Part shown: in pieces, positions 14,088 to 17,424 of the stretch
Position numbering within the stretch: the stretch's first letter is position 1
Layout of the letters: each line of letters starts with the position of its first letter
Origin: Chloroflexota bacterium
GTDB taxonomy: Bacteria; Chloroflexota; Dormibacteria; CF-121
Length of the DNA stretch: 33,828 nt
Reading direction: 5' to 3'
Assembly (NCBI GenBank): GCA_005880395.1
Contig: VBHQ01000162.1
Span: 1 to 33,828, forward strand
The notes under the pieces: generated by a model
Told to the model about the DNA's origin: nothing
Database searches by the model: none
The model's input: the letters and a program-made list of their open reading frames with translations, nothing else
Position numbers and translations under genes: made by a program

Positions 14088-14573
14088 TTACGGGTGCACC
14101 ACGCTCCAGCCGGTGTAGTTGCCTTTGGTGTCGCCGGTCTGGCTGTCCGTGTGGAAGAAATAGAGCGGCAGGCCTTTATAGGTGACTTGCAACGAGCCAT
14201 CGCTGCGAGTGATGGTTCCGAGTTGCCCGGTGACGCCGGCGCCGCCGGTCGGCGTTTGCCCAGCGGCGACCGTTAGCGGCGGCCAGATCGCGGCGCATTG
14301 CCCGGTGCAGCGGCTCACGCCCGGGCTATCGCTATCAAAGGTATAGAGCGTGTGGCTGTTCGAGGCGGCGACGACCAGTGTCCCCATCGTGCCAACACTC
14401 TGCGCCATCACAACAGGTGCGGCCGCTGATGGCGATGGGCTCGGCGTCGCCGTGGCCGAGGCAGTCGGCGAAGAACTCGCCGCCGGAGCGTTCGCCTGCG
14501 AACCGCAAGCCGCCAGCACGGTGATGGAAAGCCCCAGGATTATCACACCGCGAGCCGCGGAAGTGAGAGTCAC
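14088..14573 (-). CDS. COG4315-type lipoprotein (secreted repeat of unknown function)
   Basis: GTG start with GGAGG SD; ITVLAACGSQ lipobox; HTLYTFDSDSPGVSRCTGQCAAIWPPL...GLPLYFFHTDSQTGDTKG. Confidence 0.85.
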   Translation of the reverse strand: MTLTSAARGVIILGLSITVLAACGSQANAPAASSSPTASATATPSPSPSAAAPVVMAQSVGTMGTLVVAASNSHTLYTFDSDSPGVSRCTGQCAAIWPPLTVAAGQTPTGGAGVTGQLGTITRSDGSLQVTYKGLPLYFFHTDSQTGDTKGNYTGWSVVHP

Positions 14574-14662
14574 ATTGCGCCTCCTCCGAAATCTCCTCAA
14601 GGCTGGTACGCGGCGACGTTACGCGGCCGGTACCTTCCCGGCGGTAAGGCACTACGCAAAAT

Positions 14663-15046
14663 ATGTCCATGGGCCAACCGGGCTGGTGGCGGGTGGTCCA
14701 AGCCACCGTGGCAGTCATCGGATCAATTGCATTCCTATCGTCCTATGTCGCTATTCCGTTCATCGTGGCGCGCCGGCGGCATAAAGAGCGGGGAACACCG
14801 ACTCGGTCGACGATGAAGCTCGCCTTCAAGTTGACCCTGATCCTCAACTCGATTTGGTGGGCGATTCCGCTGGTGCCGGCCCTTTTTCTGCAGAAGTGGA
14901 GTGCGATCCAGTTGATACTCGTCGTGGTTTGGGCAGCGTTAACCATCCCGATAGGCGTTCAGCTTGTCTCCAGGTTGATTTCGCCGCTGTCCGACAAAGA
15001 CATCGTGACGTTTATGAGCTTCCGGCGTGACGCCCAAAGGCGCTAG
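14663..15046 (+). CDS. Small hypothetical membrane protein
   Basis: Three hydrophobic segments (VVQATVAVIGSIAFLSSYVAIPFIV; LILNSIWWAIPLVPALFL; LILVVVWAALTIPIGVQLV). Confidence 0.6.
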   Translation: MSMGQPGWWRVVQATVAVIGSIAFLSSYVAIPFIVARRRHKERGTPTRSTMKLAFKLTLILNSIWWAIPLVPALFLQKWSAIQLILVVVWAALTIPIGVQLVSRLISPLSDKDIVTFMSFRRDAQRR

Positions 15047-15714
15047 GCGGTATACACCTCAACCTGGCCGCGCTCGATCCGAACGTTCAGCGACGGCAGC
15101 CGCGGCAACGGTGTCTCGTACTGATCCGTTGGCTGGCCGTCCGTCTGGAAGGTGGCCCCGTGACAGGGGCACTCGAATTGACTCCGGAACTTGCTGTAGT
15201 TGAGGATGCAACCCATGTGGGTGCAGACCGCCGACAGTCCCTTCACGTCCTGACCGCTACGAATCAGGAATCCCTCGATCGCTCCGGCTCGGAACGCGAT
15301 CGGCGTCCCTTCGGGGAGATCGGCAAGCGCCTTGACGGGCTTCCAGGTCCCGTTTGTCACCAGCGCCTGACTGGCTGCCGGCGGCGTTTGCTTGGCCAAC
15401 CGGTCAACGCCAATCGTGGCCGCGATCCCGGCGGCTAGACCGGCGGCGCCGGTCAGTAACAGCGAACGGCGGCTCGGACGGGCAACCGGCTGTGGCCTGG
15501 CCGACTGCTCACCAACCCACTGCGGAATCGATGCCTGGATCCGCTCCAGAAATTCCTTCGACGGCAGGCCGGCGCCCGGCTTGGCGGCGCGCAGCATCGC
15601 CGCGGTCTGTCGCGCCCGCAGGGCGTCCTCGTCCGGCAGTGGCGTCCGTTCGGGCTTGCGGTCCTGGAGCAGGTCCTCGACGTACTGGTCCAGCGTTTCG
15701 GGATCGTCGTTCAC
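15043..15714 (-). CDS. Membrane-anchored (Tat-type) Rieske [2Fe-2S] protein with ~75-aa N-terminal extension; candidate anti-sigma/redox partner of the adjacent ECF sigma factor
   Basis: CTHMGC...CPCHGATF Rieske ligands; twin-arginine SRRSLLLTGAAGLAAGIAA anchor; N-terminal LDQYVEDLLQDRKP...LRAAKPGAGLPSKEFLERI; GTGA start/stop overlap with the sigma factor gene. Confidence 0.9.
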   Translation of the reverse strand: MNDDPETLDQYVEDLLQDRKPERTPLPDEDALRARQTAAMLRAAKPGAGLPSKEFLERIQASIPQWVGEQSARPQPVARPSRRSLLLTGAAGLAAGIAATIGVDRLAKQTPPAASQALVTNGTWKPVKALADLPEGTPIAFRAGAIEGFLIRSGQDVKGLSAVCTHMGCILNYSKFRSQFECPCHGATFQTDGQPTDQYETPLPRLPSLNVRIERGQVEVYTA

Positions 15715-16277
15715 GGCGTCCTCCCGCGCTCGCGCCCGGCGCGATTCAACGCCCGAAACTGCAGGACCTTGACGTTGGTCTCCGTGAGGCTCAGCTCCTG
15801 GGCCGTCTCCCTGACGGAATAGCCCTTGAGGAATCGCAGCTCGAGCACTCGACGGTAACTCTCGGGAAGCGTAGCCATCAGGGCATCGACCCGCTGGATC
15901 GCCTCCGGATTCTCTCGCGCGGCCAGCGGCTTGCTGACGTCCTCTTCGAGCTCAGCGATGTCCTCGGCGTAATAGTGCCGCCAGTGATCGGCCAGCGTCG
16001 TCTGCGCCACGCGGTAAAGCCAGCTGCGCAGCTCGGGGACCGAGACGTCGCTGCGCATGCCATTGATTGCCTTCATAAAGACCTGGGCGGTGAGATCCTC
16101 CGCGTCCGGCCGGTTGCCGACTCGGCTGTAGATGTACTGGTAGATCGCGGTGACATGCGTTTGATACGCCCAGGTGAGGTGGTCCTGGTCTTTGGTCGTG
16201 TCCGGCTGGCGCAGCGGCACGACCTTTCCCGGGGAAGCGAACGTCGTCGCGGCGGCGGTCGACTCATCCTCACGCAT
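15711..16277 (-). CDS. ECF-type RNA polymerase sigma factor
   Basis: Sigma2 region YIYSRVGNRPDAEDLTAQVFMKAI...LRSWLYRVAQTTLADHWR; sigma4 region LPESYRRVLELRFLKGYSVRETAQELSLTETNVKVLQFRALNR. Confidence 0.93.
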   Translation of the reverse strand: MREDESTAAATTFASPGKVVPLRQPDTTKDQDHLTWAYQTHVTAIYQYIYSRVGNRPDAEDLTAQVFMKAINGMRSDVSVPELRSWLYRVAQTTLADHWRHYYAEDIAELEEDVSKPLAARENPEAIQRVDALMATLPESYRRVLELRFLKGYSVRETAQELSLTETNVKVLQFRALNRAGRERGRTP

Positions 16278-16306
16278 CCGCTTCCGCAGTTATATACCGG
16301 CGGAGG

Positions 16307-16355
16307 TTACAGCGGGTGACTGGCATTTAACCGCATTCCAGCCACTCCGCTGTAA
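16307..16355. promoter_or_regulatory. Long imperfect inverted repeat between the divergent ECF sigma gene and trxB
   Basis: TTACAGCGG-GTGACTGG (16307-16323) against the reverse complement of CCAGCCACTCCGCTGTAA (16338-16355) = TTACAGCGGAGTGGCTGG: perfect 9-bp outer arms, one indel and one mismatch inside, 14-nt centre. Confidence 0.6.
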
Positions 16356-16407
16356 TTGAGGAAGGTTGAAGCTGGGAATACTTTCTTATGGAAAGGCCTT
16401 GGATAAC

Positions 16408-17424
16408 ATGGGAGCCGCGCAAGCAATGGAAAACCATCACCAGTACGACATCGCCATCATTGGCGGTGGTCCGGCGGGATTGACGGCCGCCCTGTACGCC
16501 GGGCGGGCTCGGGTCAAGACCGTGCTGCTGGAGCGCGGAGCGCCAGGCGGGCAGCTGCTCAACACCGAGGCGATCGAGGACTATCCAGGCTTCGACCATA
16601 TCACCGGGACGGAACTTGCCCAGCGGATGGCCGACCAGGCGGTCAAGTTTGGCGTCGAGCTGAAGACGGCCAACGTCACCTCGATCCGGCGCGAGGGCGG
16701 CAAGAAAGTCATCCAGACCGATGACGGCTCGTTCCTCGCCGACTTCGTGATCCTGACCGCCGGCGGCGAGCCGAAGAAGCTCGGCATTCCCGGTGAAAAG
16801 GAATTCCAGGGCAGGGGCGTTTCGCAGTGCGCCGTATGTGATGGGGCCTTCTTCAAAGAGGAAGAAGTGGCCGTGATCGGCGGGGGCGACGCGGCACTCG
16901 AGGAGGGCGTCTTCCTGACCCGCTACGTAAAGAAGGTGTACCTCATCCACCGGCGCAGTCAGTTCCGCGCCCAGGCCATCCTCGTCGAGGCGGCCAAGAA
17001 GAACGCGAAAGTCGAGATGGTCCTCAACACCGTCGTCACCGAAATCCGTGGCGGCGACGGGCAGGTGCGCGAGGTCGTCCTCAAAGACGTTGACTCCGGC
17101 CAGATGCGAACGCTTCCGGTGACCGGCGTCTTTGTCTTCATCGGCTTCCAGCCGAACGTGCAGTTCTTCGACCATCGCGAGCACCTGGAGCATGACCCGC
17201 TCGGATTCCTGGTCACCGACTCGACCATGCAGACCAGCTTGCCTGGGGTTTACGCAGCCGGCGACGTGCGGGCGCAGCTGACCCGGCAGATCACCACCGC
17301 GGTCGGCGATGCCACGACTGCGGCCATCGACGCCGTCAAGAAGCTCGAAGCCAAAAAGCACGAGGCGACTCCCATCCCCGTTGACCTCTACGGTCCAACG
17401 CGCCCCGACCTCATCGTCGGGTAA
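16408..17424 (+). CDS. trxB: Thioredoxin reductase (NADPH)
   Basis: YDIAIIGGGPAGLTAALYAGRA, CAVCDG redox-active motif, VIGGGDAALEE, GVYAAGDVR. Start uncertain (TTG 16366, ATG 16408 or ATG 16426). Confidence 0.93.
   Translation: MGAAQAMENHHQYDIAIIGGGPAGLTAALYAGRARVKTVLLERGAPGGQLLNTEAIEDYPGFDHITGTELAQRMADQAVKFGVELKTANVTSIRREGGKKVIQTDDGSFLADFVILTAGGEPKKLGIPGEKEFQGRGVSQCAVCDGAFFKEEEVAVIGGGDAALEEGVFLTRYVKKVYLIHRRSQFRAQAILVEAAKKNAKVEMVLNTVVTEIRGGDGQVREVVLKDVDSGQMRTLPVTGVFVFIGFQPNVQFFDHREHLEHDPLGFLVTDSTMQTSLPGVYAAGDVRAQLTRQITTAVGDATTAAIDAVKKLEAKKHEATPIPVDLYGPTRPDLIVG

Follow-up and report, generated by a model that had tools for sequence, protein, structure and literature searches.

A Tat-anchored Rieske protein as the probable anti-sigma factor of a BldN-like ECF sigma factor

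Background

In the window analyzed here, a 33,828-nucleotide stretch of DNA from a Chloroflexota bacterium of the class Dormibacteria, a gene for an ECF sigma factor is followed and overlapped by a gene for a membrane-anchored Rieske iron–sulfur protein. This arrangement raises the question of whether a Rieske protein can act as an anti-sigma factor and, if so, what it senses and which genes respond. The original prediction for this locus was a Rieske-type anti-sigma factor with an extracytoplasmic Fe–S sensor that acts on a sigma factor controlling trxB and other thiol-redox genes. The anti-sigma part of that proposal is supported by the gene pairing, the ASDIII-like N-terminal domain, the domain swaps, and the fusions described below, while the part concerning trxB and thiol control is not. 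To our knowledge, the redox sensors among the characterized anti-sigma factors monitor the cytoplasm by means of thiols and zinc, and we found no description of a Rieske-type anti-sigma factor in the open-licence full-text literature, though an earlier mention is possible. If the assignment is true, such a protein would report directly on extracytoplasmic electron transfer, both in the Chloroflexi/Dormibacterota of soils and in Actinomycetota, among them Mycobacterium, Nocardia, and Streptomyces.

Organization of the sigma–Rieske locus

The predicted gene layout was confirmed by the open-reading frames. The sigma gene (15711..16277, minus strand) encodes a 188-aa, BldN-like protein that carries the sigma2 and sigma4 domains (PF04542 and PF08281) and no other domain, the composition of an ECF (group 4) sigma factor. 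Its closest solved structure is BldN from the RsbN–BldN complex (6dxo_A, E = 3.7e-14), and it scores 96.5 bits against the BldN family model TIGR02952, below the cut-off of 206 bits for a BldN equivalog. The Rieske gene (15043..15714, minus strand; 223 aa) begins at a GTG that overlaps the sigma stop codon as GTGA, and trxB (16426..17424, plus strand; TIGR01292, E = 3.9e-108) lies divergently on the other side of the sigma gene. A convergent reading frame at 14663–15046 (plus strand) encodes a 127-aa membrane protein with no Pfam match; the 3′ end of this frame shares 4 bp with the Rieske stop codon.

The expected architecture of the Rieske protein, with a twin-arginine anchor, intact ligands, and an N-terminal extension (here ~80 aa), was also recovered. 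The only Pfam match is the Rieske domain (PF00355, E = 8e-13, aa 123–197). The proposed sigma-binding, ASDIII-like cytoplasmic domain occupies aa 1–72 (15499..15714, minus strand), followed by a twin-arginine signal anchor identified in family alignments at aa 80–110, with the arginine pair at 82–83 (15385..15477, minus strand), and by the Rieske [2Fe-2S] domain at aa 122–222 (15049..15351, minus strand), delimited by AlphaFold2. In an AlphaFold2 model built from 53 sequences, the Rieske fold was predicted with a pLDDT of about 92–98 and the preceding Tat/transmembrane stretch with low confidence. The ligand motifs CTHMGC and CPCH are intact and both extra cysteines are kept, and these CxH...CxxH ligands together with the fold place the protein among the Rieske [2Fe-2S] proteins; Foldseek matched it to the Rieske domains of 8hn2, 9rk4, and 5cxm.

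This bc/b6f-like fold with its disulfide cysteines is what one would expect if the protein belonged to a respiratory complex, either of the bc1/b6f type or an alternative one. That assignment is nevertheless hardly credible, given that the protein falls below the NCBIfam bc1/b6f cut-offs (36 bits against 97.4 for TIGR01416), that no cytochrome b is found among the neighboring ORFs of the window, and that the genome encodes a separate Rieske protein beside a membrane-protein ORF.

The twin arginine is common to all 170 Rieske-bearing relatives, and 163 of these retain all ligands and both extra cysteines. In the other seven (L018, L022, L137, L258, L267, L277, and L278), which form two clades, an Asp replaces the first His ligand (CxDxxC), with all cysteines, the sigma gene, and the architecture kept. 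The Rieske frame of L014 is broken downstream of CTHMGC, reflecting either an assembly error or a decayed copy. The loss of a His ligand in two clades that keep their sigma factor favors a variant of the anti-sigma reading, in which the Rieske domain senses iron or Fe–S supply, or Tat export, rather than redox state. Tat exports Rieske proteins folded, and an unloaded protein would stay unexported or be degraded, freeing sigma. The full set of ligands and cysteines in the great majority of the family argues against this variant, as does the target list discussed below.

Conservation of the pairing

The original prediction had proposed a search for conserved sigma–Rieske pairs, and such pairs proved abundant. 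Searching 61 related genomes turned up 30 Rieske loci, each with an ECF sigma gene directly upstream and mostly with a 4-nt overlap, and a scan of genome contigs gave 80 further loci, largely from Actinomycetota (Mycobacterium, Mycolicibacterium, Nocardia, Streptomyces, Actinomadura, Kribbella, and Pseudonocardia). A sigma gene adjoined the Rieske gene in 137 of 140 loci. With further loci added, there were 175 unique pairs, 166 of them overlapping (140 by exactly 4 nt), in two phylum-level groups, the class of the window and Actinomycetota, indicating that the pairing is more than chance. The one clear exception is L249, where the N-terminal domain is present and sigma absent. None of ten Rieske proteins without the N-terminal extension (L182–L190 and L290, matched from the anchor onward) had a sigma partner. 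The family is present in most genomes of the window's class (77 of 110 by an N-terminal profile search), and its occurrence in orders of the Actinomycetota is sporadic (7/250 and 11/201).

The N-terminal domain

The N-terminal domain of the window protein is predicted to form helices at aa 5–16, 28–44, and 53–70 (same AlphaFold2 model), and aa 1–80 contain no Cys. A zinc-free, three-helix cytoplasmic N-terminus on a membrane-anchored protein co-transcribed with sigma is characteristic of the ASDIII class, and the anchor and the gene overlap are family-wide (twin arginine in 170/170 members, overlap in 166/175 pairs). The HxxxCxxC zinc/thiol motif that marks class I zinc anti-sigma factors of the RsrA type was not found in this domain. 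A profile search of PDB, Pfam, and NCBIfam with the domain alone returned nothing significant. Compared with a set of RsbN-like N-termini, consisting of RsbN genes adjoining bldN and DUF5667 proteins beside ECF sigma genes from the window's class, the alignment was collinear over the full length (P = 0.0016; hhalign probability 6.5%), a match that is weak by itself; zinc class I domains gave P = 0.0033 and sigma-segment controls 0.56 and 0.86. The window protein also matched the anti-sigma model NF052375 weakly (E = 0.0047), which we did not count alone.

In 6dxo, the founding ASDIII complex, helices 1 and 2 of the anti-sigma factor contact sigma4, and helix 3 contacts sigma2 (PMC7406223, which interchanges the two names in one sentence). 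Direct coupling analysis of 174 pairs linked sigma4 residues 160/164/169 with helix 1 residues 20/15/16 and sigma2 residues 42/78/84 with helix 3 residues 56/63/67, and the mean strength of the top ten couplings was 1.91, compared to at most 1.34 for shuffled pairings. Ten of the top 20 sigma couplings fell in the N-terminal domain, five in the transmembrane segment, and five in the Rieske domain, against an expected 6, 4, and 9. In an internal control, sigma was coupled to the exported Rieske domain only somewhat less strongly, presumably through common descent; because of this partly shared phylogeny, the agreement of the N-terminal couplings with the ASDIII layout is suggestive only. In L027, sigma and Rieske lie in frame across one TAG, and a fused AlphaFold2 model based on this locus gave confident domains but a pTM of only 0.49, in an arrangement that matched no known sigma/anti-sigma complex, so the model was excluded from the evidence.

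Domain swaps and sigma fusions

In two Mycobacteriales loci (L288/L411 and L289/L412), the same sigma factor, upstream motif, and N-terminal domain are found with a C-terminus that is not Rieske. The L288 and L289 proteins match the NCBIfam anti-sigma model NF052375 (6.9e-9 and 3.8e-7) and PRK13920, and in L412 the motif is also followed by a Lipoprotein_15 gene. In three other loci, an ORF directly upstream of the sigma–Rieske pair fuses a sigma-like protein to the N-terminal domain (L401 546–1674; L402 994–1750; L403 828–1818, reverse complement). The sigma part of the fusion is degenerate, with only region 4 recognized by Pfam (L402), and the fusion proteins are possibly decoys or soluble regulators. 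The occurrence of one domain on both non-Rieske anti-sigma proteins and sigma-like fusions supports a Rieske-type anti-sigma factor, and, judged from the sequences, this shuffling is stronger support for the putative anti-sigma role than the RsbN profile match.

The same observations bear on the alternative of an electron-carrying Rieske protein that sigma merely co-regulates and whose extension does not bind sigma. Rieske proteins and cupredoxins are classic electron-transfer partners, and L401 and L402 encode a second Rieske protein downstream of the operon. An extension unrelated to sigma, however, would not be expected beside the same sigma on non-Rieske anti-sigma matches or fused to sigma-like proteins, nor would Rieske proteins lacking it be invariably unpaired, and we regard this alternative as improbable.

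An upstream motif and its candidate regulon

The motif YGTAACC-N7-STAT lies upstream of the sigma gene in 81 of 107 non-redundant regions, in both groups. A weight-matrix (PWM) scan of the window found it at two places only, 16311 and 14623, both on the minus strand: upstream of sigma as TGTAACCTCCGCCGGTAT (16294..16311; 22.1 bits) and, as the weaker copy CGTAACGTCGCCGCGTAC (14606..14623; 12.8 bits), upstream of a gene for an exported Lipoprotein_15 with YxFxxD repeats (14088..14600, minus strand; PF03640, E = 5.3e-24), a probable regulon member.

Forty Actinomycetota genomes with the pair contained 95 exact matches, compared to three in 40 genomes without the pair drawn from the same orders; the reversed pattern gave 18 and 6 in the same two sets. 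Some of these 95 matches lie in the sigma promoters from which the motif was defined, and it is the excess over one per genome, with the cupredoxin sites, that is independent. Per 771 kb, 134 matches were found in real and one in shuffled sequence.

Among the genes behind the motif in all loci, cupredoxins of the plastocyanin/azurin type form the largest cluster (81 motif sites), followed by clusters of Lipoprotein_15 (19), CHRD (13, slightly below the Pfam cut-off), DoxX (12), and PAP2/haloperoxidase-like proteins (11). In relatives, the motif also precedes a TIGR03118-like protein, named by eye with no Pfam match, and other exported proteins. The 78 genome contig loci hold 47 same-strand copies after the Rieske stop codon; most lie no more than 40 nt beyond it, and the gene that follows typically encodes the cupredoxin. 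A cupredoxin gene adjoins the Rieske gene in about half of the genome contig loci. Downstream of the sigma–Rieske operon, L409 and L410 (genomes G035 and G037) carry another Rieske gene, of the bc type, and a Lipoprotein_15 gene, joined in L409 by a haloperoxidase/PAP2-like gene.

The sigma regulon thus probably consists of exported proteins of these five clusters. Rieske proteins and cupredoxins pair as donor and acceptor in bc/b6f and arsenite oxidase chains, and since the proposed Rieske sensor and the cupredoxin targets would form such a pair, extracytoplasmic electron transfer is the likely input. The targets also bear on the iron or Fe–S supply variant: the cupredoxins could conceivably replace iron proteins, but the targets are redox carriers and not iron uptake genes, and we judge that variant unlikely. 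The motif provides an immediately testable regulon and suggests that exported families whose function is unknown, such as Lipoprotein_15, have roles in electron transfer.

Promoter geometry

The BldN promoter is CGTAACN16CGTTGA, the −35 box of which equals YGTAAC (PMC2375139), and ECF sigma factors need a rigid spacer, with an optimum of 17 bp for sigma-H (PMC6411747). The second element of the motif lies about 8 bp from YGTAACC, compared to the 16–17 bp expected, too short for a normal ECF promoter. Counted from the first base of the motif, an ATG stands at position 26 in 22 of 193 cases, compared to about 3 elsewhere; leaderless starts fall at positions 24–26, several of them opening signal peptides, and GGYR peaks at positions 23–26 (41/193). 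The ATG cluster and the GGYR peak indicate that transcription seems to start there. YGTAACC was also considered as an ordinary −35 box, but this reading would place the leaderless starts at position 26 ahead of the transcription start, and it was dropped. Either the promoter is an unusual one that sigma recognizes, or YGTAACC is recognized by a different factor. Promoter elements at about −26 and −11 would be roughly 8 bp closer than in any ECF promoter we know of. The most far-reaching version of the proposal, a widespread class of Rieske [2Fe-2S] anti-sigma factors that is tuned by cupredoxins, reads extracytoplasmic electron transfer, and acts on an ECF promoter at −26/−11, we hold to be doubtful.

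The neighboring trxB gene

Within the window's own family, trxB is the divergent neighbor at 17 of 18 loci, the observation that would favor a SigR/RsrA-like thiol-redox module with sigma controlling trxB. Among the loci compared, however, this neighbor is missing from other families, from Actinomycetota, and from the f1 paralogues, and the weight-matrix scan of the window found no sigma-type motif before trxB. A block conserved within the family does lie upstream of trxB at about 16330–16425 (GGGAATAC ... TTAGATAACATG), and we take it to resemble a SigR-type −35. With no zinc/thiol motif in the N-terminal domain and with other motif targets found, a SigR/RsrA-like module is very unlikely, and trxB is probably a bystander. 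The co-occurrence of trxB with sigma–Rieske pairs, a check proposed with the original prediction, is thus limited to one family, and the suggested control of trxB and thiol redox by sigma did not hold up.

Proposed mechanism

Given the conserved pairing, the architecture, and the domain shuffling, we consider it likely that the two genes encode an ECF sigma factor and its anti-sigma factor, a pair of the BldN/RsbN (ASDIII) kind whose sensor is the exported Rieske [2Fe-2S] domain of the anti-sigma factor. Counting against this reading are the weak similarity to RsbN, the partly phylogenetic coupling signal, the fused model that resembles no known complex, the L249 member without a sigma gene, the short motif spacing, and the seven members with Asp at the first His ligand. 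The three-helix N-terminal domain would hold sigma at the membrane, with helix 1 against sigma4 and helix 3 against sigma2, and so repress it. The folded Rieske domain, exported by Tat, would report extracytoplasmic redox state or electron supply, with a cupredoxin as the probable partner in this step. We infer the direction of the signal as well: sigma would be released when the cluster changes or is lost, and the freed sigma would transcribe its own operon and the genes behind YGTAACC-N7-STAT, namely those for cupredoxins, Lipoprotein_15, DoxX, CHRD, and PAP2/haloperoxidase-like proteins.

Comparison with known systems

The closest known system is RsbN–BldN of Streptomyces (6dxo). The window sigma is closest to BldN, the gene for a membrane anti-sigma factor lies just downstream, the N-terminal domain has three helices and is zinc-free, and YGTAAC equals the BldN −35 box. 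Unlike RsbN, which ends in DUF5667, the window protein ends in a Tat anchor and Rieske domain, the similarity of the N-terminal domains is weak, and the two promoter elements are separated by about 8 bp rather than the 16 bp of the BldN promoter. The DUF5667 anti-sigma factors of the window's own class share the 4-nt overlap with an ECF sigma gene and the three-part N-terminus but have another extracytoplasmic domain and another sigma subgroup. RsrA–SigR and RslA–SigL, which are redox-sensing pairs of the class I zinc type, resemble the present pair in that a redox input would reach an ECF sigma factor through its anti-sigma factor; in contrast to these, the window protein has no HxxxCxxC, its proposed sensor is an extracytoplasmic [2Fe-2S] cluster, and trxB is not a target by motif. 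Finally, the protein shares its fold, ligands, disulfide cysteines, and Tat-type signal with high-potential Rieske proteins (C. tepidum 8hn2, K. stuttgartiensis 9rk4, PetC3 5cxm, and bc1/b6f), and is set apart from them by an extra, sigma-associated N-terminal domain and by a partner that is a sigma factor rather than cytochrome b.
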